Positions 17,904 through 63,609 of a stretch of 64,000 nt of DNA are shown here, piece by piece. The stretch's first letter is position 1, and the number at the start of each line of letters is the position of its first letter. The stretch is from NCBI GenBank assembly GCA_030054195.1, contig JASGCJ010000001.1:92159-156158 (forward strand), written 5' to 3'. The notes beneath the pieces were generated by a model. It saw only the letters and a program-made list of their open reading frames with translations. It was not told the DNA's origin and did not search any database. Source of the stretch: Minisyncoccota bacterium (GTDB lineage Bacteria > Verrucomicrobiota > Verrucomicrobiia > Methylacidiphilales > Verrucolacustridaceae). The position numbers and the translations under genes are program-made.

Positions 17904-17930
17904 TGCGGCTGGAGGGAATCGAACCCTCGT
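17904..17930 (-). repeat. tRNA 3'-end-like attachment repeat, copy 1
   Basis: On the minus strand this reads as the T arm GAGGG-TTCGATT-CCCTC followed by an acceptor strand and, in the three bases further left, CCA. Upstream on the minus strand there is no matching 5' acceptor GCGGCTG, so it is a 3' fragment and not a full tRNA. The identical 27 bp recurs at 24014 and 55105 in the same orientation. I interpret it as the displaced original 3' end at the left boundary of an integrated island. Confidence 0.7.
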
Positions 17931-18123
17931 AGAGTAAGCATTGCAAACCACTGATTTACAGGCCTTTTTTTCTCGATTCACGCTCTTTTTAAAAAGGCTG
18001 GTTGCAATGATGTTGTAACTTTTTTTATTTGAACTGCAAAATCATAGCAGTTTTTATGGAGTTTGATTCTCTGGAAATGACCTTGATCCGCCTCCATTCA
18101 AGACTAGGATATTATTTGTGAAG

Positions 18124-18429
18124 ATGTTTTCTCATCTCTGCCTTGGATTGGCTCTGATTGGTTTTACATTTACAACCATGGCTGAAAGCCATGGTTTAAT
18201 TGATTGTTCCCATCATCACGCGGATGCCTCGAGTCACGAGAAGCCTCAAAAACAAGATTTTCCCACCAAACATCTAGACTGCAGCTGTTTTTCGGCCTCC
18301 GTGATCCTGACTCAAACTCACGTGCCTTTTTCCGGTTCCTTCCGATCGGACGAAGCTCTTGCTTGGAAAGAGAAATTCTGGCCAAAAATTGTTTTTTCTC
18401 CTGACCTCCAACCTCCCCGCCTGAGTTAA
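18124..18429 (+). CDS. Small exported His/Cys-rich protein at the head of the metal-efflux operon
   Basis: About 101 residues. The N-terminus MFSHLCLGLALIGFTFTTMA looks like a signal peptide. The mature part has DCSHHHADASSHEKP and LDCSCFSAS, clusters of His and Cys that could bind metal. It lies 114 bp upstream of the TolC-type gene on the same strand. A GTG start two codons earlier (18118) is also possible. A periplasmic metal-binding helper for the efflux pump is plausible but unproven. Confidence 0.5.
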   Translation: MFSHLCLGLALIGFTFTTMAESHGLIDCSHHHADASSHEKPQKQDFPTKHLDCSCFSASVILTQTHVPFSGSFRSDEALAWKEKFWPKIVFSPDLQPPRLS

Positions 18430-18543
18430 GAATCCTAAGCTACTCCGTAGCTTAGCTGGGTAGTTCATTCCGGTTGTCACCGGAATTTCGATGATCGTCA
18501 ACCCTTCCGGCATAAAAACCGGAACCCAATCAGGTTCTAGGCA

Positions 18544-19908
18544 ATGAAGATTTTTTTCAGGACAGTCAGTTTGTTAGATTTGGACTGGATATTTTCCAAT
18601 CCAACGAGGCTTATTTGCCTCGTGGTCCTGTTTCAGATGCGGGCCTCGGCTACCCCAGAGATCTCTGCACCCGCCTCCTACCCACTGCCAATCGAGGAAT
18701 TGGTAACGGAAGCACTTAACAACAATCTGGAACTTCGCTCTTACGAGGCTGAGCTGGGTGTGGCCCGCGGGGAACGTCGACAAGCAGGAATGTGGAAAAA
18801 TCCTGAGTTCGAAGGGAATTACGCCTATCGAAGAGTCTCGGATGCGCAGGAACTCCTTACCGGTGAAGGCGTCAGCCGAGGCCTTGCGATTGTCCAGACT
18901 TTTGAATTTCCTGGCAAAGGATCGCTACGAAAGGCAATCGCTAACCAGAACATCCGGTTGGCTGAGTTGGGCGTGCAACAGTTCCGTCAAGCCCTCGCCG
19001 GACAAGTTCGCAGTCTGGGCATTCAGTGGATTTTGGTTCGGGAGAATGCTAATGCCACCGCCGAATTGAGCGAGCGCAGCCAAGCTCTCCTGCAGCTACT
19101 GGAGGCACGCCCCATCGCCGGCCCCACCAAACTCCTGGAATTCCGGGCCATCCAAGGAAGTCTGACCGATTTACACTTCACCGCTCGGGAACTGAAACAA
19201 AAGCAGGAAGAAATCAGAATACAACTGAACAGTCTCTTAGGGCGCCCCGACAAAGAGGAAATCCGGCTTGATCAGGGTGTAGGAACTCCTGCTTTTCCGG
19301 TGGGAGACATACCCAATATGCTCCGATCTGGGGAGGAAAACAACCTACAGCTCCGAATCCGTCATCTGGAGCTGGAGCGTGCCGCCAAGGCAGTGAACGC
19401 CTCTGAGTTGGAAATGGCTCCGGATTTCAAGGTGGGGCCGTACTTTAGCCAAGAAACTGCAGGTGAGGATGCCCTCAATATGGGCATGGTCTTGGCGATG
19501 TCTTTACCTCTTTGGAACTGGAACCAGGGAGGAATCGACACAGCCAAAGCTCGCCAAGAAAAAGCCTACTGGCTTAAGCAGGATGCCGCCCGTCAGGTTC
19601 GCATGGTAATTTACCAAAGAATTCGAGCCTATACCTTGGCTCTTGAACATCTACAGGCCACGCCAGCACGGGACATCAATATGTTGTCCCAATCTGCAGG
19701 CTTGGCGGATCGTCAGTACCGTACCGGGGCAGTGGGAATCCAACTTCTTCTTGAAATGCAGCGCCAATTTCTTGCTGCTCTTCGGACTCGAAACCAGAGC
19801 CTGTTGGAAGCTTGGCAAAGTTGGCTGGACCTCGATCTTCTAACTGCGGGCGGATGCTTGCCCACACGGCAAGCTCAGAGCGTAAGCACAGCGGGGACAA
19901 ATCCATGA
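18544..19908 (+). CDS. TolC-family outer-membrane efflux protein (CzcC-like)
   Basis: 454 residues. A hydrophobic leader (residues about 20-37) is followed by paired helical repeats with the family pattern: YPLPIEELVTEALNNNLELRSYEAELGVARGERRQAG in repeat 1 and NNLQLRIRHLELERAAKAVNASELEMAPDFKVGP in repeat 2. It forms the outer-membrane duct of a tripartite pump with the next two genes. Its stop overlaps the adaptor start by 4 bp. It lies in the left-most island, between attachment repeats 1 and 2. Confidence 0.88.
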   Translation: MKIFFRTVSLLDLDWIFSNPTRLICLVVLFQMRASATPEISAPASYPLPIEELVTEALNNNLELRSYEAELGVARGERRQAGMWKNPEFEGNYAYRRVSDAQELLTGEGVSRGLAIVQTFEFPGKGSLRKAIANQNIRLAELGVQQFRQALAGQVRSLGIQWILVRENANATAELSERSQALLQLLEARPIAGPTKLLEFRAIQGSLTDLHFTARELKQKQEEIRIQLNSLLGRPDKEEIRLDQGVGTPAFPVGDIPNMLRSGEENNLQLRIRHLELERAAKAVNASELEMAPDFKVGPYFSQETAGEDALNMGMVLAMSLPLWNWNQGGIDTAKARQEKAYWLKQDAARQVRMVIYQRIRAYTLALEHLQATPARDINMLSQSAGLADRQYRTGAVGIQLLLEMQRQFLAALRTRNQSLLEAWQSWLDLDLLTAGGCLPTRQAQSVSTAGTNP

Positions 19909-20756
19909 CGAATTGGAGATCTATCCTATTTTATCGATGCTTCGTGCCTGGATTCGCTTTGCTCATGGCTTCCTGCAGCCCCTCGTCCCAGAATCAGGAA
20001 AAGGAAAAACTAGATTCGAATACTTCTGCGAAAGAAGTGACCGAAGCCAAAGCTGAAACTCCGGTTGATCCCCATGAGCACGAAGCAGACAAAGAAGATC
20101 ATTGTGATGGCAAGGAAGAATCTCTCACCCTAACGCCTGAAGAAACACTTGCCCTGGCCCCGGAATCAAATCCAGTTGTAAAACACGAGTTCGTGCAAAC
20201 AGCTTCTTTTTCTGGGCAGATTTATCGTGGCGCCGGAGAGGCAAGCCTGCGACATGGTCGAGAAAGACAAGGTTCTGCTTACGCCAGTTGCCTATTAGCT
20301 GCAGAGGCAGCTGAATCAGTCGCAAATAATGTCGAAGCACAGTTTTACCGACCTCCCCCATCCACAGATCAATTCACAGGATCCCTTCTCAGAAAAGAGG
20401 ATGAGGAGTCCGGATGGCGAGCCGGCCAACGAGAACTTCTTTGGGAAATTAAGGATCCAGCGCTTTCCCTTCAGGTGGGGGACATTGTCACAGGTTCTGT
20501 CACTCTCAATGGTCAGCCCCGCATGGCACTAGCAGTCCCCAACGATGCTGTCCTAACCACAGCTACGGGTCCGGTGGTTTATTTGCATCAGGAAAATTAC
20601 TGGTTGCGAAGAATAGTTAAAATTGGTGCTCAGGATCGAGGTTGGACCGAGATTTTGGAAGGCCTTCAGGAAGCTGATGAGGTTGCGATTCGGTCCGTGG
20701 ATGCTCTCTATTTGCTTGAGAGGAAAAAAGAAGGTGGTGGAGGCCACTGCCACTAA
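19905..20756 (+). CDS. Short RND periplasmic adaptor lipoprotein (CzcB-like), apparently lacking hairpin
   Basis: 283 residues, against roughly 380-520 for typical CzcB adaptors. The lipobox region GFALLMASC puts Cys at about residue 22. A His/Asp/Glu-rich linker (VDPHEHEADKEDHCDGKEE) follows. The C-terminal half has the beta-barrel and membrane-proximal pattern (DPALSLQVGDIVTGSVTLNG, VPNDAVL, GLQEADEVAI). The segment where the lipoyl halves and the alpha-helical hairpin should be is only about 70 residues with no hairpin-like repeats. It ends GGGGHCH, a possible metal ligand cluster. No frameshift was seen; the frame is intact and coupled on both sides. Confidence 0.75.
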   Translation: MTNWRSILFYRCFVPGFALLMASCSPSSQNQEKEKLDSNTSAKEVTEAKAETPVDPHEHEADKEDHCDGKEESLTLTPEETLALAPESNPVVKHEFVQTASFSGQIYRGAGEASLRHGRERQGSAYASCLLAAEAAESVANNVEAQFYRPPPSTDQFTGSLLRKEDEESGWRAGQRELLWEIKDPALSLQVGDIVTGSVTLNGQPRMALAVPNDAVLTTATGPVVYLHQENYWLRRIVKIGAQDRGWTEILEGLQEADEVAIRSVDALYLLERKKEGGGGHCH

Positions 20757-23700
20757 ATGAAATCCCTTTTATCTTTCTGCGTGGATCACGCCCGCGGCGT
20801 GATTCTGGTATTAGTGGCTACAGTTCTCGTAGGTCTCTACTCCTTTACCCGACTGCCCGTTGATGCCGTGCCAGATATTTCCCCTGTTCAGGTTCAGGTC
20901 AACACCCTGGTAAAGGGATTGGCGCCGGAGGAAGTAGAAAAACAAGTAACCTTCCCCCTCGAGACTGAATTAGCCGGAGTTCCTGGCATGGAGGAGATTC
21001 GCTCACTCTCAAAGTTTGGTCTTTCCCAGATCACCTTAATTTTTCGGGATGGCACCGATTTATTCCGAGCCAGACAAATGATTTCGGAAAAGATCCAAGC
21101 TGCCACACCCTCCCTGCCATCCGATGTGGCTCCGCGCTTGGCCCCAATGGTAACGGGACTTGGAGAAATTATTTTTTATACTGTCGACTTTAAAGCAGGT
21201 GCCCAGAGCCCGGATATACCCAACGACCGATCGGAACAGCTCATGGAACTAAAGCGCATCCACGATCTTTTGATCAAGCCGAGGCTCCGCTCCGTTCCGG
21301 GGGTTGCAGAAATCAACACGATAGGCGGAAAAGAAAGGCAATTGCTTGTCCTAGCTTCACCAGAAAAGCTAGCTGGAGCAGGCCTTTCTTTTCGAGAAAT
21401 CCGTGACGTGGTAGCCGAAAACACGGAAAATGCAGGCGGAGGGATTCTCTCTTTGGGCGGTGAGCAGGTTAATGTCCGTGCCAACACTCGGGTAAACCAG
21501 CCTGAAGAGGTTGCCACTCTTGCAGTGAAGACAGGACCAGGAGCCACTGCCTTACGGCTATCCGAAGTGGCAGAGGTGCAGACGGGTTCATCTGTCCGCG
21601 TTGGGGCTGCAACATGGAACGGCCGGGAGGCCCTCCTTGGAACCGTCATGATGCTTGCTGGCGAGAATCCCAGGGTCGTTGCTCGAAACGTCGAGGCCCA
21701 AATCCTGGAAATCTCCACCTCCCTACCGCCTGGCGTGGAAATTCGCATACTATCTAGCCGCGCTGATTTGGTGGACCGCACGATTGCTACAGTCCGCAAT
21801 AATCTCACCGAAGGCGCTGTCATTGTTGTTGTAGTTCTACTCCTTCTATTGGGAAATTTACGAGCTGCTCTGATTGTTTCCCTGTCGATCCCCCTTTCCT
21901 TCCTTCTGGCCGTGACAGGAATGGTTCCGAGTCGCATTTCAGGCAACCTAATGAGCCTAGGCGCGGTTGATTTTGGACTGATCGTGGATGCATCTGTGGT
22001 GATGGTGGAGAATATTGTTCGCCGTCTTCGCGAAAATCAGAAAAAGAAGGGGCATCCCTTGGCCGAAACAGAGAAGAACCAGGTGATTCTTAGCGCCGCC
22101 CAGGAGGTGGCTTCCCCCATGTGCTTTGGAGTCATGATTGTAACGATTGTTTATGTACCGATTCTCGCCTTAGGCGGCATCGAAGGGAAAATGTTCCATC
22201 CAATGGCCCTGACGGTGATGCTCGCCTTATTAGGCTCCCTTTTAGTTGGCTTACTAGGAATGCCGGCACTTTGTCGTTTCGCGCTAAAAGATTTTTCCCA
22301 CGACCACGATCCCCATTGGCTCCGCTCGATCCAGAATGCTCATCGACGTTTGTACGAGCAGGCCATGAAAAAGCGCCGGATGTTTGTAGGATGGACAGCG
22401 GGAGTGTTTCTTTTTTCCATGGGGATCCTAGTGTGGATGGATAAAGAGTTTCTGCCTCGGCTTGATGAGGGCGCCATCACCGCACATATGATCCGGGCTG
22501 CTGGAGTTTCTCTGGATCAGGCCTTAACCATGCAGCAGAAGTCTGAAAAAGTGATTCTCGAAAACATCCCGGAGGTCGCCCAGATTTACTCCAAAATTGG
22601 GACCGACGAGGCAGCCACAGATCCTATGGGGGTCAATATCGCTGATTCTTTCTTGATCCTTAAGCCTCGCTCCAAATGGAAGGGCCACAACAACCAGAAC
22701 GACCTAACCCAGCGCATATCCGAACTTCTGCAAAAAACGATTCCGGGACAGTCCTACATTTTTTCCCAACCGATTGAGATGCGTTTTAACGAGATCCTTG
22801 AGGGAACTCGGGCCGACATAGCCGTAAAGATTTTTGGAGACGACTTCTCTGAGTTGGAGAGAATTGGCAACGAAATTAGAGAGTTTTTAGAAAAGATCCC
22901 CGGCACGGCGGAAGTCGAGTTCGACACCTTGGGAAAGGCTCCCGTCTTGGAAATTAAGCCGGACCGGCAGGCCTTGTTGGCCTATGACGTGCATGCTCGG
23001 GAAATTAATGATGTGATCGCCACTGCCCTGGCTGGAAGCGATGTCGGCACAGTGATTCGGGGCAATCAACGAATTCCCGTGGTGGTCCGTCTGCCTGAAC
23101 ATATTCGGAATGACCTGACTCAGATCCGCCGCCTACCGGTTCCCACGGAAGACGGCGGGACTGTCCCCCTCGAAAAAATCGCAACTTTTAAAGTAAGTGA
23201 TCAAGTGAACGCGATTTCGCGGGAGACCGGACAGAGGCGAGTTGCACTCATGGTCAGTCTTAAGGGAGGAAGTGCCAGCGATTGGATTAGCACGGCGCAG
23301 ACGAAACTCTCCAAAATTGACCTCCCGAAGGGATATAGAGTCGAGATGGGTGGTCAATTTAAACACTACCAAGAAGCAACTCAGCGCCTGCGAGTTGTGG
23401 TCCCGATGACTTTAATTCTCATCCTCATGCTTCTTTTTGCAGCTCTCAAAAGCTTGCGCCATGCTCTGTTGGTGCTGCTCTGCGTTCCCACAGCGGTGAC
23501 TGGGGGAGTTTTGGCTTTGGCCCTTAGGGGAATGCCTCTGACGATCTCCGCTGTAGTAGGATTTTTAGCCCTTTCGGGAATCGCTGTCCTTAACGGGGTG
23601 ATGTTGATCACCTATATACAGCAACTTCGTCGGCAGGGGGTTCCATTAGAACAGGCTGTCCGGGAGGGAACTTTCACTCGGCTTCAGCCAAAAATCATGA

Positions 23701-23888
23701 CTGCGTCCGTGGCCGCTGCGGGTTTTATTCCGATGGCAATTTCAACAGGGGCGGGGGCTGAGGTTCAGCGTCCTCTAGCGACTGTCGTGATTGGAGGAAT
23801 TATTACATCAACATTTTTAACTCTAGTCCTATTGCCGGTTTTGTTCCTTTGGATCGAGAACTCAACGAGAGCTAAAACCACCCGCTGA
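20757..23888 (+). CDS. Heavy-metal efflux RND pump (CzcA family)
   Basis: 1043 residues, inner-membrane proton-driven exporter. TM1 is near residues 12-30, the large periplasmic loop has RLPVDAVPDISPVQVQVNT, and the TM4 motif GAVDFGLIVDASVVMVEN (about residues 400-418) has the DFG...D pattern of divalent-metal (Zn/Co/Cd) HME-RND pumps. A second bundle of membrane helices starts near residue 870. The ATG follows the adaptor stop directly (TAAATG). With the TolC and adaptor genes it makes a full efflux operon; the ion is inferred only. Confidence 0.93.
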   Translation: MKSLLSFCVDHARGVILVLVATVLVGLYSFTRLPVDAVPDISPVQVQVNTLVKGLAPEEVEKQVTFPLETELAGVPGMEEIRSLSKFGLSQITLIFRDGTDLFRARQMISEKIQAATPSLPSDVAPRLAPMVTGLGEIIFYTVDFKAGAQSPDIPNDRSEQLMELKRIHDLLIKPRLRSVPGVAEINTIGGKERQLLVLASPEKLAGAGLSFREIRDVVAENTENAGGGILSLGGEQVNVRANTRVNQPEEVATLAVKTGPGATALRLSEVAEVQTGSSVRVGAATWNGREALLGTVMMLAGENPRVVARNVEAQILEISTSLPPGVEIRILSSRADLVDRTIATVRNNLTEGAVIVVVVLLLLLGNLRAALIVSLSIPLSFLLAVTGMVPSRISGNLMSLGAVDFGLIVDASVVMVENIVRRLRENQKKKGHPLAETEKNQVILSAAQEVASPMCFGVMIVTIVYVPILALGGIEGKMFHPMALTVMLALLGSLLVGLLGMPALCRFALKDFSHDHDPHWLRSIQNAHRRLYEQAMKKRRMFVGWTAGVFLFSMGILVWMDKEFLPRLDEGAITAHMIRAAGVSLDQALTMQQKSEKVILENIPEVAQIYSKIGTDEAATDPMGVNIADSFLILKPRSKWKGHNNQNDLTQRISELLQKTIPGQSYIFSQPIEMRFNEILEGTRADIAVKIFGDDFSELERIGNEIREFLEKIPGTAEVEFDTLGKAPVLEIKPDRQALLAYDVHAREINDVIATALAGSDVGTVIRGNQRIPVVVRLPEHIRNDLTQIRRLPVPTEDGGTVPLEKIATFKVSDQVNAISRETGQRRVALMVSLKGGSASDWISTAQTKLSKIDLPKGYRVEMGGQFKHYQEATQRLRVVVPMTLILILMLLFAALKSLRHALLVLLCVPTAVTGGVLALALRGMPLTISAVVGFLALSGIAVLNGVMLITYIQQLRRQGVPLEQAVREGTFTRLQPKIMTASVAAAGFIPMAISTGAGAEVQRPLATVVIGGIITSTFLTLVLLPVLFLWIENSTRAKTTR

Positions 23889-24013
23889 TCATCTGTCGGG
23901 AATCGAACTCAAAAATCGAAACTTTTTGGGGGACTTTGTTGTAAAAAAGTGTTGTAAATCGAATGAATTCCCCGGATTTTTCTTCTGCAAGTTGCTAACT
24001 TGTAGATATTTGG

Positions 24014-24040
24014 TGCGGCTGGAGGGAATCGAACCCTCGT
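24014..24040 (-). repeat. tRNA 3'-end-like attachment repeat, copy 2
   Basis: Identical over 27 bp to 17904-17930, and over 30 bp if the three bases to the left (CCA on the minus strand) are counted. The integrase gene starts 115 bp to the right. Between them lie short direct repeats (TGGCACTTTTTGGCACTTTT near 24060, GTAGCACTGGTAGCAC near 24126) that could be recombinase arm sites. Confidence 0.7.
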
Positions 24041-24154
24041 CATTTTTACACAGTGAAAAATGGCACTTTTTGGCACTTTTTCGAAAATCCTACAGAGAGG
24101 ACCACTTTTTAAGGTGGTTGAAAAGTAGCACTGGTAGCACTACTTTTAAAACCC

Positions 24155-25204
24155 GTGGCATCCCTGCATCAAAGACCTCGAAGTCCGTTCTGGTGGCTTA
24201 AATTTACGGACAAAAAAGGGGTCAAAAGATTCCGCAGTACCGGCTTTCGGACCGATTCCGCACTCGAAACCAGCAAAGCCAAATCCCTCAAAGCAGAGGC
24301 CGAAGTCGGCGAAGTGGTAGTTGCTGAACAGGCCCAAAAATCGGACGGCTGGAATTGGGTCGAAAAAACTTTTGCTCTGGAAATTATCAACCCACTCAGT
24401 CGTCAGGCCACTATCGACCGTTGGCGTAGGGTCGAAGTTTTTCTCCTCCAAAAGAAGATCCACTCTCCTACTCATGTTCATCCCGATCTCCTGGCCGAAT
24501 ACATCTCCTGGCGTACCTCGACGCCACGCCGTTCGGGTAAGAAAGCCTCCCGGAACACGGCCATCTACGAGATGCGAGTTTTTATCCGAGTGATGCGTCA
24601 TGCCGTTCGCCGACGATTGATCCAGTACAACCCGCTGGAGGGCGTCAAACTGGCCAAGACTCCACCCAAAGTGAAACCCGCCATGACGAATGAGGAGATT
24701 GAAATCATACGCCAAGCCCTTCCTGAGCAACCCGCCTGGATGACGATCGCCTTTGAGATCGCACTGGCGACGGGATGCAGACTCAGGGAAACCTCCATTC
24801 CTCTCAAATGCATCGATTTTTTGAGGGGCCGCATCACTTTCCCCGCTCCCAAGGGCGGTGAGGGAAAATCATTTACCATTCCCATGCCCACGACTCTTCG
24901 CCTTTTATTGGAATCACTCCGAAACAAGAAAGTCACGTGTGAGATTCCGAAGATGGCCAGCAAGGAGTTTGGCCGGGATTTTCTCCATCGGAAACTTGGT
25001 CTCAAGCATCTTTCCTTTCACTGTCTTCGAGTTACCAAGGTTTCGCGAATGCTTCTCGAAGGGGTTCCCTTGAACTTCGCAATGAGGCTCGTGAACCACT
25101 CGGACGAACTGGTTCATCGGATATATCAACGGCACGAGGTGTCCGACCTTGAGGTTTATCGAGATGCAGGAATTTCCGGCGCCAAATCTGATAGTCAGAC
25201 ATAA
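24155..25204 (+). CDS. Tyrosine recombinase / integrase
   Basis: 349 residues, GTG start at 24155. The C-terminal catalytic domain shows Arg-209 (TGCRLRE), His-289 and Arg-292 (FHCLRVT), His-315 (VNHSDE) and Tyr-324 (HRIYQRH), the complete phage-integrase set. The N-terminal region has an arm-binding-like start (SPFWWLKFTDKKGVKRFRSTGF) and a SAM-like core-binding domain. It sits immediately right of attachment repeat 2 and faces away from it, so it probably inserted the element that runs to repeat 3. Confidence 0.92.
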   Translation: MASLHQRPRSPFWWLKFTDKKGVKRFRSTGFRTDSALETSKAKSLKAEAEVGEVVVAEQAQKSDGWNWVEKTFALEIINPLSRQATIDRWRRVEVFLLQKKIHSPTHVHPDLLAEYISWRTSTPRRSGKKASRNTAIYEMRVFIRVMRHAVRRRLIQYNPLEGVKLAKTPPKVKPAMTNEEIEIIRQALPEQPAWMTIAFEIALATGCRLRETSIPLKCIDFLRGRITFPAPKGGEGKSFTIPMPTTLRLLLESLRNKKVTCEIPKMASKEFGRDFLHRKLGLKHLSFHCLRVTKVSRMLLEGVPLNFAMRLVNHSDELVHRIYQRHEVSDLEVYRDAGISGAKSDSQT

Positions 25205-25393
25205 AGACCAGTCCATCCAACAAAGGAAAACCCGGCTTCCTCGCTATTTGCTTCGCCTTAAAGATCCCGATCCCAAGATTTCCAGCAAAGACCGTTAGGG
25301 TCATCGGTTTTTCAACGTCCTCCATTACCGAACCCTTTTTAGAAATTCAGGAATGCTTATTCTCATCACTTTGAGTTTCTTCCCGTAAGCATA

Positions 25394-25426
25394 TTGACAT
25401 TATAATAGATGCATGCATTATGTCAA
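25394..25426. promoter_or_regulatory. Inverted repeat in front of the XRE gene
   Basis: TTGACAT (25394-25400) and ATGTCAA (25420-25426) form an inverted repeat centred on the palindrome TGCATGCA (25410-25417). It ends 3 bp before the preferred ATG at 25430. A likely autoregulatory operator of the HTH protein that follows. Confidence 0.5.
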
Positions 25427-25429
25427 GAG

Positions 25430-26005
25430 ATGAGTAGCAAAACCTGCCGTCCCACTCGGCTTCCGGCCAAAATCCACCCCCTCCATAACGTCCGCCAAAT
25501 CACGGGGTTCACTCAGGAGCAGTTCGCCCAAAGGATCGGCATTTCCACCCCTCTCCTCAGAAATATCGAGCTTGGTCAGCGCCCGATCACCTCAAGAGCT
25601 GCCAGAGCCATCTACCTCCTTACTGGGATCGATCCCGCCTCTTGGACGAAAAAGACCCCCTTTTCAACGCTAGGCAGGAAGTTTGATTCCGAGACATACG
25701 ACCTCTGGAAGATGGTTAGCCAGGACGAAAACGAGGCGGCGCCCAAAAGGGTCACTGGTCGCCGAGTTAAGGCATTGGAACTGATTGGCCAAGCCATGGC
25801 TAGAGGCGAAAAGGGTATCGTATGGGAGGAAGACTTTCGCCAGTTCTTGGCCGAAGTGGTCAAACGATACAACCTAGAAGCCCCCCTTCAGGAAATTAAA
25901 CGCGAACTCGAGCAACGCGGTGAAGTTTGGCCCCAGGAAGCCTTTTCCGCTCCCAAAGAAGTGGCCAAACGTGCTACTGCAGCCGCAGCGATGCTTAAGC
26001 TTTAG
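25430..26005 (+). CDS. XRE-family helix-turn-helix protein
   Basis: 191 residues from ATG 25430; an in-frame ATG at 25409 would lie inside the upstream inverted repeat and is less likely. Residues about 20-68 (LHNVRQITGFTQEQFAQRIGIS followed by LLRNIELGQRPITSRAARAIYLLTG) are a Cro/C1-type HTH. The remaining 120 residues are charged and helical with no known domain. It lies between the integrase and two arrays of about 11-bp repeats, which start 12 bp after its stop and may be its binding region. Confidence 0.8.
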   Translation: MSSKTCRPTRLPAKIHPLHNVRQITGFTQEQFAQRIGISTPLLRNIELGQRPITSRAARAIYLLTGIDPASWTKKTPFSTLGRKFDSETYDLWKMVSQDENEAAPKRVTGRRVKALELIGQAMARGEKGIVWEEDFRQFLAEVVKRYNLEAPLQEIKRELEQRGEVWPQEAFSAPKEVAKRATAAAAMLKL

Positions 26006-26016
26006 AATTAATTCGA

Positions 26017-26162
26017 ATTTCGGGCTATTTTCGACCCCTTTTCGGGGTAATTTCAGCCTATTTTAAGGGTATTTTCGGGGTATTTAATTTTAGTTCTCGG
26101 TCATATTCCCGGTCAGGCTCCCGGTAGATTCTCGGTATTTTCTCGGTCAAGTTCTCGGCCTG
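26017..26162. repeat. Degenerate 11-bp tandem array 1
   Basis: About thirteen consecutive units of 11 bp (occasionally 12). Examples: TTTTCGGGGTA (26039, 26072), TTTTAAGGGTA (26061), TTCTCGGTCAT (26094), TTCTCGGTATT (26129), TTCTCGGTCAA (26140). The common core is TTYTCGG, repeating once per helical turn. The unit length is not a multiple of three and no frame is open, so this is not coding. Located directly after the XRE gene. Confidence 0.75.
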
Positions 26163-26223
26163 GAATGCCCTCTTTTGCCCCAAACCCCGCTTTCACACCC
26201 CTTAAAACCCCGTTCTGGTTAAG

Positions 26224-26419
26224 TTATGGCGTTGTTTCGCGTTGTTTTTTTAAGTTTATGGATTGTTTAGCGTTGTTTGTGGATTGACCGTGGTTTGACA
26301 TGGATTGACTGTGGTGTTGTTTCGCCATTGAACATGGTCTGACAGCGAATTAACCATGGATGACACTGGTGGCTCATGGCGTTGAGCATAGCACTGACGG
26401 CCTATTGAGCGTGGTTAAG
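26224..26419. repeat. Degenerate 10-12-bp tandem array 2
   Basis: About eighteen consecutive units of 10-12 bp ending mostly in TTG or CTG. Examples: TTATGGCGTTG (26224), TTTATGGATTG (26255), TTTGTGGATTG (26276), ACCGTGGTTTG (26287), ACATGGATTG (26298), AACATGGTCTG (26331), TCATGGCGTTG (26374). The rough consensus is ACNTGGNNTTG. It differs in sequence from array 1 but keeps nearly the same period. It ends 29 bp before the GH38 stop. Confidence 0.7.
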
Positions 26420-26447
26420 GGCGATCGAATAGCCTCTTTGCCGAATT

Positions 26448-28922
26448 TTAAAGTATGGCTTTCTGAGCCTCATCGCAAAGGCTCCCATTCTCAAATGCAT
26501 AAGGGGCGAGAGCAAAGCTGCCAACCTTGTGGTTGAGGCAAGAGACGACTGCCGACTGGGTTTGTCCCGTGGGATTGAAGAGCCGGAAGATCCAGCCTTT
26601 GTCGGCGGGGTCGCGTCGCAGGGAGCTAAGAAGCACCTTCGAGTTATCCAATACCAAAGAAGGGAGAGGGAGAACACCGTTGCCGGACGGGAACGCCTGC
26701 AGAGAATACGGAAGCTGGTTGCGCTCGAGCGCCAATCGGTCTGCTGACAAAAGTAGGCTTTCCCGATCACCGGGAATCATCCAAAACTGGAAGATCCGCT
26801 CACCTTGGTCCATGCGAGGGACAAAGCGGTCGGTCGGGATGTAGCGCAAATCTTCCCAAGCATGAGCACTGTAGGCAGGCGATCTCTGGAGGGTCAGGCG
26901 GATCGAGTTGCCCAGACAATCCCCACCATAGGTTCCGTTATTGATGAGAAGAACTCCGTGGCGGTCTCCACCGAACCCGCCGCACCACTGCTGAAACGCA
27001 CATTCGTCTCCATCCGTCGGCAGATCATGCACGCCGAAGAGCGTCTGCCCTCGAAAGTCGATGACGGGCGTTCGCAAGTTCGTGGACCATTTGGCCGCCC
27101 GATCCTTTTCATTCCAAAGCATCCGGATTTCGACGCCGACGGCAGATCCGGTTTTCGGAATCGAATACAGAATCTGTGCCCGTGAGTTCTGCCACCCGCA
27201 GAGTGCCTCGACGACCGTGCGCACCGGACCATCCTCAACCACCCGAACGGCGCCCAGTTTTCCCGTGCCATCGGGTCCCACCACTCCGGCAAAGCTTCCT
27301 GCTTCGGCCTCGGCCAATGCGGCAAACCTGCCCTCGACTGTGCCGAGGGTTGTGAGCTTGCCGACCCAGGAATCCGCCACGTCCCGCACGACTTCCAGCC
27401 CGCATCCCTCCGGCCCGAGGTATTCGCGGCCATGATCCTTAAGGGAAAGCATTCGCCCGCTCCGCCTGCAAATCGCGACCTCGAGCGTGCCAGTTGCGAC
27501 CTTAAAAATATTGTCGTCACCGGAAAAAGCCGGGGCGGGTTTCTTGGGCAATTCTCGCAGCCGCAGGTCAAACCGGCTGATCGCCGAGGCGGCAAGGCAT
27601 CCGCGGAACACGACATGCTTGCGCCAGTCCAACGGCATGTTGCTTGCCTCCTTTTCGACCTGCGAGGGGACGGGGGTTCCGGTGCGCATGTCGGTGATGG
27701 CCACATCGAAGAATGTCCCGTTCCAATTCTGATTTTCCATCTGGAACTCGACATCGATTTCAGCCTCCCATTCATAGGGGTGCGGGTTGAAGACGAACAC
27801 CGGGTATGTTCCCTCATTGGCCAATGGTTGGCCGGAAAGCAGGGAAAAAAACGACCGTGCCGCCACCCGTGCCACGATCTCCCGCCCATGACCCAAAAGC
27901 CGCAGAGCCGCTTCCTCCGCCGCCTGGATGGAGGATCCCGGCAGGATGTCGTGGAACTCGGAGATCAACAGGTCCCGCTCCGCGTCCCGCAAGGCGTTCG
28001 CCGGATAGTCAACGAACCCGTTGACAGCAGCCGCAGCCGCCATTTTCTCGGCCCTGAACAACTCGTTTTCAAGCGCGCGGTGCCCCTGCTTGATCCGCAC
28101 TTGCGAGGTGTAGCAACCAACCGCCCAGCGGTTCAAGTCGTGGGTGACCACCGCCAGAGGCGCCTTCTGCCCGGCCAGGACGGCAAAATAGTCTTCCGGC
28201 GTGGTATGCTGCCACGACCAGGCGCCCAAGGTTCCCTCCGTCGCCCCGAGGTCGGCCAGGTCTTTCCTCGACGGCCCCCCGCCATGGTTGCCGACCCCCC
28301 AGAGGACGCACTCGATCTCGTCACCGCTCCCAGCCAGCCGCTTCTCGATGTATTCCTTCGCCTTGCCAAGCGGCGAATTGTAAAGCTCTGGGATGCGTCG
28401 CACCACCACCCGCGACCCGTCGAATCCTTCCCACTCGAAGACGTTTTTCGGGAGGGGACAAAAGGTGTTGTCGGGACGACAGATCAGATAGGAGTCGTAG
28501 CCGTGTTTGGTGAGAATCTGAACCAGCCCTCGACTATGCCCAAACGAGTCAAAATTGATTGCTGTCGTCGGGCGCACGCCGAACTTTTCCTGAAAATACG
28601 CCTGCCCGCGCTCAATCTGCCGGCACATCGACTCTCCGGACGGCAGGTTGCAATCCGGTTGCAAATACCAGCCGCCCATGATTTGCCAGCGCCCCGCCTT
28701 CACCAGCTTCCGGATGCGGTCAAACAAAGCCGGTTCATACTCCTCTACCCATTCGTAGAGGAGCGCTTCGTTCTGGTTGAAGACGAACCCCTCGGAGCGC
28801 TCGCAGAGATCTGCCGCAGATCGGAAGGTCGCCAGTGCCGCCCCCAGTCCCTCTTCCCACTCCCATAACCACACAGGGTCGAGGTGGGCATGGCACACGA
28901 GAAAGGCTGATCGCGTGGACAC
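26448..28922 (-). CDS. GH38-type alpha-mannosidase
   Basis: 824 residues from a GTG at 28922. HAHLDPVWLWEWEEG near residue 11 is the zinc-binding His/Asp motif, and INFDSFGHSRGLVQ near residue 125 holds the catalytic Asp nucleophile of GH38. The N-terminal alpha/beta barrel, three-helix bundle and C-terminal beta-sandwich regions appear complete. No signal peptide, so it is probably cytosolic and acts on imported oligosaccharides. In-frame ATGs at 28973 and 29012 exist, but the GTG has AGGG upstream and lies downstream of a 14-bp operator that would otherwise overlap the start. Removes terminal alpha-mannose. Confidence 0.9.
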   Translation of the reverse strand: MSTRSAFLVCHAHLDPVWLWEWEEGLGAALATFRSAADLCERSEGFVFNQNEALLYEWVEEYEPALFDRIRKLVKAGRWQIMGGWYLQPDCNLPSGESMCRQIERGQAYFQEKFGVRPTTAINFDSFGHSRGLVQILTKHGYDSYLICRPDNTFCPLPKNVFEWEGFDGSRVVVRRIPELYNSPLGKAKEYIEKRLAGSGDEIECVLWGVGNHGGGPSRKDLADLGATEGTLGAWSWQHTTPEDYFAVLAGQKAPLAVVTHDLNRWAVGCYTSQVRIKQGHRALENELFRAEKMAAAAAVNGFVDYPANALRDAERDLLISEFHDILPGSSIQAAEEAALRLLGHGREIVARVAARSFFSLLSGQPLANEGTYPVFVFNPHPYEWEAEIDVEFQMENQNWNGTFFDVAITDMRTGTPVPSQVEKEASNMPLDWRKHVVFRGCLAASAISRFDLRLRELPKKPAPAFSGDDNIFKVATGTLEVAICRRSGRMLSLKDHGREYLGPEGCGLEVVRDVADSWVGKLTTLGTVEGRFAALAEAEAGSFAGVVGPDGTGKLGAVRVVEDGPVRTVVEALCGWQNSRAQILYSIPKTGSAVGVEIRMLWNEKDRAAKWSTNLRTPVIDFRGQTLFGVHDLPTDGDECAFQQWCGGFGGDRHGVLLINNGTYGGDCLGNSIRLTLQRSPAYSAHAWEDLRYIPTDRFVPRMDQGERIFQFWMIPGDRESLLLSADRLALERNQLPYSLQAFPSGNGVLPLPSLVLDNSKVLLSSLRRDPADKGWIFRLFNPTGQTQSAVVSCLNHKVGSFALAPYAFENGSLCDEAQKAIL

Positions 28923-28972
28923 CCCGATCCCTAAACGCCCTCGTATAACCTTATCCTGAACAACTCCAGACA

Positions 28973-28986
28973 TGTGATTAATCACA
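28973..28986. promoter_or_regulatory. Operator TGTGATTAATCACA upstream of the GH38 gene
   Basis: A perfect 14-bp palindrome of the TGTGA-N4-TCACA family found five times in this locus. It lies 51 bp upstream of the GTG start of the mannosidase. A TTGCAA hexamer nearby on the minus strand could be the -35 of a promoter it overlaps. Confidence 0.65.
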
Positions 28987-29090
28987 CCACAAATGATAAA
29001 CCTTGCAACCACAGAGACTTCGTGATTTGCTAATAGAGTGATTATAGTATACTATACTTTATTACTGGTTTGATGAAGATATCCCCCTAA

Positions 29091-54373: not shown

Positions 54374-55104
54374 CGTTGCAAGGAGAAACTCGCAGCGTCT
54401 GAGTGCACCCCTTCATGTGCGAAAATACCCTTCCAGGGTAGAGCGTTATGCGAAGTGCTCCGAGGCCCCTTGCCCTCCATCAGCAACCTAGTCAATTCAG
54501 AATGCGGCGTAAGCATGGGGGAGAGAATCACCTTTCAAGCCGCACGGATGCCGATGACGTAGACCACAATCCGATTGATGCTCGCAAAATAGTCCAACGC
54601 GACCCTCACCTTGCCAACCCTTTTGCAAGAATCGATTACACATCCCTTTTAATAGAGCTCAAAGGAAGCTTTTTCAGGGAGAATTCCACTTACGATACCC
54701 CCCAGGGGCCGATTCATGCCAGGAGTTTGAGCGAGACTTTACCGCACCACTGCCCAGTAGTTTACCGAGAACCTGACCGAGAAGGTTTAATAAATGAACC
54801 TGAAATAGAACTTAATTCAGCCGAATTTATTTCTCAAAAAGGGGCTTTGCGAAAAAGCAATTCAGCCCAAACAGTTTGAGGTTTTTTTAGAAAAGAGGCG
54901 CACGTTTTATTTCATCCAATGGATCAAAAAGGAATCGGAAAAAGTGAAAAGGCTGGCCGAATAAAAAAGTGCATCAATCAGACGAAAATCCTCGCGAATC
55001 TTTTCGCGCAAACAGCGGGTTCGATTCCCTCACTCGGAGAATTCAAAAAGGGCCTTCCAGGTAGCACTAACAATTGCTTTCATGTAAGTCGTTGACTAAC
55101 AACA
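54374..55104. other. Non-coding gap at the right end of element 2
   Basis: About 730 bp. One open frame (54448-54879, plus strand, 143 codons) has low-complexity composition, no start signal and no family match, so I do not call it. A T-arm-like sequence GCGGG-TTCGATT-CCCTC occurs at 55015-55031 on the plus strand without a full tRNA around it. Confidence 0.45.
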
Positions 55105-55131
55105 TGCGGCTGGAGGGAATCGAACCCTCGT
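55105..55131 (-). repeat. tRNA 3'-end-like attachment repeat, copy 3
   Basis: Identical over 27 bp to the copies at 17904 and 24014, same orientation; the three bases to the left differ (no CCA). An integrase gene starts 98 bp to the right. Direct repeats TTGTCTAAG near 55202 and 55212 may be arm sites. Confidence 0.7.
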
Positions 55132-62744: not shown

Positions 62745-62917
62745 TGAGAAGTTTCTTAGCTTTTCTTTACCTTATGTCTGCTAATGGCATGACCTTTGCC
62801 CAAGGGCTGATCAAGCCAATTGATTTCTATCAAGAGGAGGCAGAGGAAGATTCATCATTGGAAGAAATACCACCCCAACTTCCAACTAACGGTGAATCGG
62901 AGTTTGGTCAGCTATGA
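62741..62917 (+). CDS. Small exported peptide
   Basis: 58 residues. MMRSFLAFLYLMSANGMTFAQG looks like a signal peptide, leaving about 36 acidic residues (FYQEEAEEDSSLEEIPP). Overlaps both neighbours by 4 bp. No family is recognised. Confidence 0.45.
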   Translation: MMRSFLAFLYLMSANGMTFAQGLIKPIDFYQEEAEEDSSLEEIPPQLPTNGESEFGQL

Positions 62918-63609
62918 GCACGGCCCTCGAGCTTTTTGATGTTCGGGAACGACTTGCTCCGCCCCCGACAGCCAAGGTGGACGCCCCGCCAAAGACCATG
63001 GTTGCCGTTTATTTACGGGTATCGACGGAAGACCAGAACACGGATCTCCAAAGGTCGGAACTCTTGGCTCAGGCCAATTTCAGGGGCTGGGAACCGATCA
63101 TTTATGAAGACCAAGGTATCTCTGGGGCACACTTCGACAGGCCCGCCCTGAACCGCCTTCTGGCCGATGCAGATGCTGGCAGGGTCAAAGTCATCATGGC
63201 TTGGAAGCTAGATAGGATCGGCCGCTCCACCCAGCACTTAGCTGAAATCATTAATCGGCTTCTTAAGGCGGATGTTGGCCTCGTGGTTCCATCGCAGGGC
63301 ATTGATACCTCGGCCGGCAGCATGAATCCGGCCAGCAAGCTTCAGCTGAATGTTCTGGCCGCAGTCGCTGAATTTGAACGCGACCTCATTCGCGAAAGGA
63401 CGAAGGCCGGAATGAAGGCAGCAAAGGCCAGAGGGGTTAAGTTTGGCCGTGAAACGGTGGTAACCGAAGCCCAGCGAACCCAAGCCCAAGGGATTCTTCG
63501 GCATAATCCGGATACTTCGGTGACCAGCCTGTCGAAGCGTTTGGGTCTGTCATTGGGGACGGCGAGCAGACTAAAAGAACTATTAATCAAAGCCTATTTT
63601 CTTAAATGA
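62914..63609 (+). CDS. Serine recombinase (resolvase/invertase family)
   Basis: 231 residues. AVYLRVSTEDQNTDLQRSEL carries the catalytic Ser-37; YEDQGISGAHFDRPALNRLLADA and AWKLDRIGRSTQHL are the remaining resolvase-core motifs; EFERDLIRERTKAGMKAAKARG is the E helix; the C-terminal DTSVTSLSKRLGLSLGTASRLKELL is the DNA-binding HTH. Length fits small resolvases. Last gene of the coupled run; it may resolve dimers of, or mobilise, element 3. Confidence 0.9.
   Translation: MSTALELFDVRERLAPPPTAKVDAPPKTMVAVYLRVSTEDQNTDLQRSELLAQANFRGWEPIIYEDQGISGAHFDRPALNRLLADADAGRVKVIMAWKLDRIGRSTQHLAEIINRLLKADVGLVVPSQGIDTSAGSMNPASKLQLNVLAAVAEFERDLIRERTKAGMKAAKARGVKFGRETVVTEAQRTQAQGILRHNPDTSVTSLSKRLGLSLGTASRLKELLIKAYFLK

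Follow-up and report, generated by a model that had tools for sequence, protein, structure and literature searches.

Two adjacent arrays of short, degenerate direct repeats lie directly behind a gene for an XRE-type regulator in the window, the stretch of 64,000 nucleotides that we analysed, and the question is what such arrays do in a mobile element. In most cases, phased repeat arrays are the DNA to which the proteins of a centromere, an origin or a large regulatory complex bind. The original prediction described both arrays as tandem repeats with a period of about 11 bp, placed one unit on each helical turn, and considered them a possible partition, replication or nucleation site of the element. 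We therefore consider their build, the islands in which they occur and the conservation of their phase, and then the functions that they may serve.

Build of the arrays and of their host island

The arrays are located within an integrated island, in agreement with the expected association with a mobile element. The 3' end of tRNA-Gly(TCC) forms a 24-bp att core (GCGGCTGGAGGGAATCGAACCCTC), copies of which are found at 17905, 24015 and 55106 of the window and again outside it at G000:C40:162881, in identical orientation throughout. Considering that only the last of these copies belongs to an intact tRNA-Gly gene, the repeated cores represent a stack of integrated elements. The array-bearing island extends from 24015 to 55106 (31 kb), with att cores on the plus strand at its left end (24015-24038) and its right end (55106-55129), the latter being also the left end of the next element. 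Its order is att core, integrase, small divergent ORF, XRE gene, arrays and catabolic cargo. The interval between the att core and the integrase contains the direct repeat TGGCACTTTT (24061-24081, plus strand), which is likely to provide arm-type sites. As had been noted from the sequence, the tyrosine integrase gene (24155-25204, plus strand) is nearby and the arrays follow the XRE gene, which ends at 26005. The small ORF (25032-25325, minus strand) had no Pfam match itself and lies where the relatives have their HTH_17 (excisionase-like) gene. The XRE-type HTH protein of 198 aa is encoded on the plus strand at 25409-26005 (or from 25430), and its homologues are followed by the same arrays. 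The first cargo gene, encoding a GH38 alpha-mannosidase (26448-29012, minus strand), is convergent with the XRE gene. The island 24015-55106 contains no recognised replication gene.

Autocorrelation, periodogram and TRF agree that the two degenerate arrays, at 26010-26165 and 26220-26420, are real. Array 1 (26017-26162) showed an autocorrelation of 0.51 at lag 11, with echoes at lags 22 and 33; its z against dinucleotide shuffles was 5.6, compared with maxima below 3.6 in 99% of the shuffles. Array 2 (26224-26419) gave z values of 3.7, 4.2 and 3.1 at lags 10, 21 and 32, and the window-wide maximum of lags 11 and 22 lies exactly at these arrays. TRF recovered the same stretches, and a sequence-blind scan of the fetched loci for 10-12 bp periodicity returned nine matches, eight of which were the arrays or their relatives. 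Separate periodogram peaks were found at 10.95 bp in 26016-26086 (p 0.003) and at 11.75 bp in 26088-26160 (p 0.003), and array 1 is therefore composite, a TTTTCGGGGTA-like sub-array being followed by a TTCTCGGTCA-like one. Array 1a (26006-26085, plus strand) has about seven units of the TTTTCGGGGTA type with a period of 10.95 bp, and array 1b (26086-26165, plus strand) has six TTCYCGGTnnn units and ends with GGCCTGGAATG. The spacing of the array 1b units is 12, 12, 11, 11, 12 and 10 bp, the first being 11 in several homologues. A C-rich and G-poor spacer (26165-26215, plus strand; C/G 6.0), partly kept in homologues, leads to array 2 (26216-26420, plus strand), which has about 18 units of the RTGGATTGACC or GCGTTGTTT type with a period of about 10.6 bp. 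The periodogram of array 2 on its own was borderline (p 0.05), and that of its homologue in genome G013 was clear (p 0.003).

On the one hand, the periodicity of array 1 is strong and close to the 11 bp that had been proposed for both arrays. On the other hand, that of array 2 is weaker and nearer 10.6 bp. The proposed numbers of about 13 and 18 units are approximate, because the unit lengths vary from 10 to 12 bp, and periods of 10-12 bp correspond to one unit per helical turn. We rejected a structured RNA, as the arrays matched no Rfam family and folded no more strongly than their shuffles.

The island carries a second array-1 copy on the minus strand at 54716-54824, inverted and more diverged, which is located about 280 bp from the right att core and is homologous to the array of G000:C87 together with its downstream DNA. 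Beside it, a fragment resembling a tRNA 3' end (AGCGGGTTCGATTCCCTCACTCGGAGA; 55014-55040, plus strand) suggests a nested or second attachment site. In total, three elements are stacked on one tRNA-Gly(TCC) site: 17905-24015, with a czc-type metal efflux operon (18100-23888); 24015-55106; and 55106 to G000:C40:162881, with an integrase, an AAA_25 protein and a serine recombinase (62914-63609).

Array relatives in the islands of one genus

Searching by DNA similarity and with an HMM built from sequence alone, we found twelve loci with relatives of array 1, spread over six of the 21 genomes that represent the genus; each of these loci matched array 1 with an E of 1e-11 or lower. A seventh genome, G006, has a short piece of array 2 (contig C63). 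Beyond the genus, 41 other genomes of the order gave one marginal match (E 0.009), and no arrays were found in viral contigs. Contig C43, from the same genome as the window, has an array copy with 91% identity. In G013 and G010, XRE homologues with 57-58% identity are directly followed by both arrays; a third XRE homologue, in G019, is truncated by the end of its contig.

Most arrays of the family are located in islands at tRNA-Gly(TCC) or tRNA-Ser(CGA), usually where the cargo borders on an integrase, XRE or primase-helicase module. Where the upstream gene is clear (XRE at three loci, integrase at two, a DUF3987 protein and a response regulator), the array is always 3' of that gene and on the same strand. 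The array of G000:C87 follows a 400-aa integrase at tRNA-Ser(CGA), and the tRNA-Ser island of G010 (contigs C44 and C10, which overlap by 142 bp) has its array about 250 bp past the integrase. G007 (C25, L062 1-12577) has a complete tRNA-Gly island of 12.55 kb with att at 3 and 12554, which contains an integrase, a CHC2 zinc finger, a weak AEP-primase match, DUF3987, the array and a czc operon. In this genome, two array-1-type sets are found on either side of an AT-richer spacer. The array of G007:C14 has a response regulator upstream and an integrase downstream, and those of G010:C19 and G012:C90 adjoin a 5' fragment of tRNA-Arg(CCT). We also considered integrase arm-type sites, which are likewise short direct repeats in att-proximal island DNA. 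However, the arrays of the window are 2 kb from the att core, its integrase has its own repeats at 24061-24081 and the same array family is found with dissimilar integrases, and this candidate was rejected.

Several further observations were made at these loci. The czc operon of G007:C25 is related to that of the window at 18100-23888. In the tRNA-Ser island of G000:C87 (L061 12108-14380), ORFs 3' of the array were judged by eye from their sequence to be QueE- and QueD-like, and they possibly form a 7-deazaguanine DNA modification cluster. The cargo past the array in G010:C10 (L066 433-13356) includes a 1190-aa AAA/REase_MTES_1575 protein and an apparent type I restriction-modification set. 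G010 also has a third array (L008 7770-7925), in which about 15 TTG units (ATTGTTTGGCGTTGTTT) follow one another at 10.2 bp; its other strand is A/C-rich and reminiscent of the R1 parC iterons. Conserved CT-rich and G-poor DNA lies upstream of the arrays of C43 and G007:C14 (L064 180-340 and L063 16745-16890); it is strongly rut-like, with a C/G of 9 in C43, and had no 11-bp period. A short array-2-like stretch is located directly 3' of tRNA-Leu(CAA) in four genomes (L052 2984-3030; L068, L069 and L070) and may be the scar of an old island.

Conservation of phase and breaks of homology at the array edges

Our comparison of homologous islands showed that the length of the arrays, and with it their phase, is kept better than their sequence, as had been suggested from their degeneracy. 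When five homologous pairs were pooled, the arrays had 8 gaps in 551 columns and the flanks 45 in 1049, which is 1.5 versus 4.3 per 100 columns; the Fisher p of 0.002 is indicative, since the pairs share sequences and are not independent. In two of the five pairs the gap rate of the array was indistinguishable from that of the flank, and no single pair was significant alone. The identity of the arrays was usually no higher than that of the flanks. For example, G011 and the window-right sequence showed an array identity of 0.71 with zero gaps and flank identities of 0.79-0.82 with 12 gaps. We used the gap rate in place of gap lengths, and gaps of 11 in the pairwise alignments were discounted as evidence because the alignment of periodic DNA favours them.

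The unit types themselves support selection on phase. TTTTCGGGGTA, ATTAAAGGCC, TTCYCGGTNNN, GTGGATTGACC and ATTGTTTGGC are unrelated and have a common period of 10.2-11.9 bp, which random slippage does not predict. This bears on a reading in which the arrays are neutral tandem-slippage DNA, or merely curved DNA with no dedicated binder. The degeneracy of the repeats and the high curvature in a wedge model (mean rank 4.7 of 24 base relabellings) are consistent with such DNA, but a second curvature model disagrees (mean rank 9.9), several unrelated units at one 10-12 bp period are unlike random slippage, and the array position recurs. Accordingly, we consider this reading very doubtful. Curvature as an explanation was set aside, as it was backed by only one of the two models.

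BLAST of the oriented flanks showed that homology between islands repeatedly stops at the array edges. The island of C87 is chimeric at its array: its integrase side is 92% identical to G010 as far as the array, while on its cargo side the similarity is to G011 (79%) and begins with the array. In other cases the array is shared and the flanks are unrelated, namely C43 and the window (91% over 318 bp) and G010 and G012 (91% over 193 bp). In these comparisons, the array DNA looks like a module that can be exchanged between islands, or like a joint for their recombination. The array could even exist as the site, or as the mere shared homology, for the exchange of integrase modules and cargo. However, recombination needs neither 11-bp phasing nor degeneracy, and therefore the exchange is probably a consequence of the arrays rather than their selected function. 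We consider this explanation improbable.

Candidate binding proteins and function

Considering its position, the XRE protein could be the factor that reads the arrays. Its structure has an HTH and an all-helical C-terminal part, with no solved match beyond the HTH. Among 388 genomes of the phylum, homologues outside the genus showed similarity at the HTH level only, and one 26-residue match was found in a Goldiibacteriota MAG. The promoter or operator region of the XRE gene (25326-25430) has TTGAC...GTCAA ends that are invariant in four homologues, and TTGAC is also the core of array 2. The XRE protein may thus nucleate on array 2 through TTGAC, possibly also on array 1, and segregate or silence the island. 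Array 2 is present at all three XRE loci with downstream DNA, and away from XRE it was found only as the 91% copy in C43 and the short piece in G006:C63. However, the TTGAC ends may be merely the -35 boxes of two divergent promoters, and the palindromes found in the conserved XRE promoter region are missing from the arrays. In addition, there are array-1 loci that lack an XRE gene and instead adjoin the gene for an integrase, a DUF3987 protein or a response regulator, and the XRE protein is therefore not the general partner. The link of the XRE protein to the arrays is partial: both arrays recur beside XRE genes in the two genomes with 57-58% identity homologues, and array 1 elsewhere has other neighbours.

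The period and the number of sites also resemble those of known partition sites (PMC4949242, PMC3098194). The parC of R1 consists of two sets of short direct repeats, with 22 bp per two iterons, beside regulatory genes (PMC4949242). The arrays share with it the tandem iterons of about 11 bp and an A/C-richness of one strand (the minus strand of arrays 2 and 3), but they are far more degenerate, have more units and follow an XRE or integrase gene within an integrated element, and no ParM or ParR was identified. The stbDRs of R388, which are bound by StbA, form two sets around the stbABC promoter, each with five copies of one consensus of 9 bp and a 2-bp spacer, giving an 11-bp period (PMC3098194). 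The arrays likewise form two repeat sets with an 11-bp period, but they have several unit types and no StbA homologue was recognised. With respect to type II partition, the neighbours of the arrays are integrase, XRE and GH38 genes, none of them a Par motor (actin-like or Walker NTPase) or adaptor, and no ParA/ParM-like motor was identified among the profiled ORFs. We conclude that partition or silencing through the XRE protein is possible but unlikely. Of the functions originally suggested, partition is left with no motor or Par adaptor among the profiled ORFs. Replication is possible, but G007 was the only array-bearing island seen with a replication module, and DnaA boxes showed no enrichment.

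The position of the arrays 3' of genes is also what a terminator or insulator at a module border would show. In such a case, array 1 and the spacer would provide Rho-type C-rich sites for rightward transcripts, and the minus strand of array 2 would serve the convergent cargo gene. The convergent GH38 gene indeed has its 3' end at array 2, and an intrinsic terminator is absent. A rut site is a C-rich, G-poor and unstructured transcript with spaced YC. Such a base composition is found in the spacer (plus strand, C/G 6.0) and in array 2 (minus strand, C/G 2.1), and the arrays fold no more strongly than shuffles. It is not found in array 1, whose C/G is near 1 in all copies, so that a Rho rut site as the sole explanation was rejected. 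Moreover, the convergent array-1 loci G010:C19 and G012:C90 have no array 2, and Rho does not require helical-turn phasing. We regard a terminator or insulator as unlikely.

We favour, at a probability of roughly 0.4, the reading that the arrays act in cis to maintain the island, as a helically phased platform for bound proteins that serves as an iteron-like origin or stability site and is swapped between islands as a module. The first part of this reading, a phased multi-site platform that belongs to the islands and is predicted to bind protein, is well supported; the maintenance role is what we infer from it. Proteins on successive units would sit on nearly the same side of the helix, where they could assemble into a multi-protein complex. 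A factor that all these islands share, perhaps encoded by the host, may read array 1 with its TTCYCGGT units, and the neighbouring XRE protein may recognise array 2 with its TTGAC units. The complex would then help to maintain the excised island, its most likely role being that of an iteron-like origin or a stability site. No protein was tied to array 1 in this analysis.

Integrative elements with comparable iteron origins include SaPI and PLE elements as well as SGI1 with its oriV. In SGI1, four oriV iterons of 17 bp are located immediately downstream of rep (PMC7433901). In a similar manner, the array of G007 is directly 3' of a replication module, and an AT-richer spacer lies between its two sets. 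The AT content reaches up to 0.75 in 60 bp. However, a replication module was seen only in G007 among the array-bearing islands, the window island has no recognised replication gene and there is no enrichment of DnaA boxes (1.37 per kb versus 1.14 in the background). Apart from the CHC2, weak AEP and DUF3987 matches of G007, we recognised initiator genes neither in the window island nor at most of the other arrays; such absent genes are weak evidence, because the genomes are incomplete MAGs.

Phased direct-repeat arrays in general are already a known kind of element. For this family, with its restriction so far to one genus, its sharing across integrases and its position at module joints, we found no description in the open-licence papers that were searched. 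As a broader and quite unlikely possibility, the genus-specific arrays could form an exchangeable control locus of tRNA-targeted islands, in which one host factor would read array 1 across unrelated islands and coordinate their maintenance or excision, and the arrays would double as joints for the swapping of integrase modules and cargo. The family itself, found with different integrases, keeping its phase while its sequence drifts and having homology that stops at its edges, would give a handle on the maintenance of small islands and the exchange of their cargo in poorly studied bacteria.
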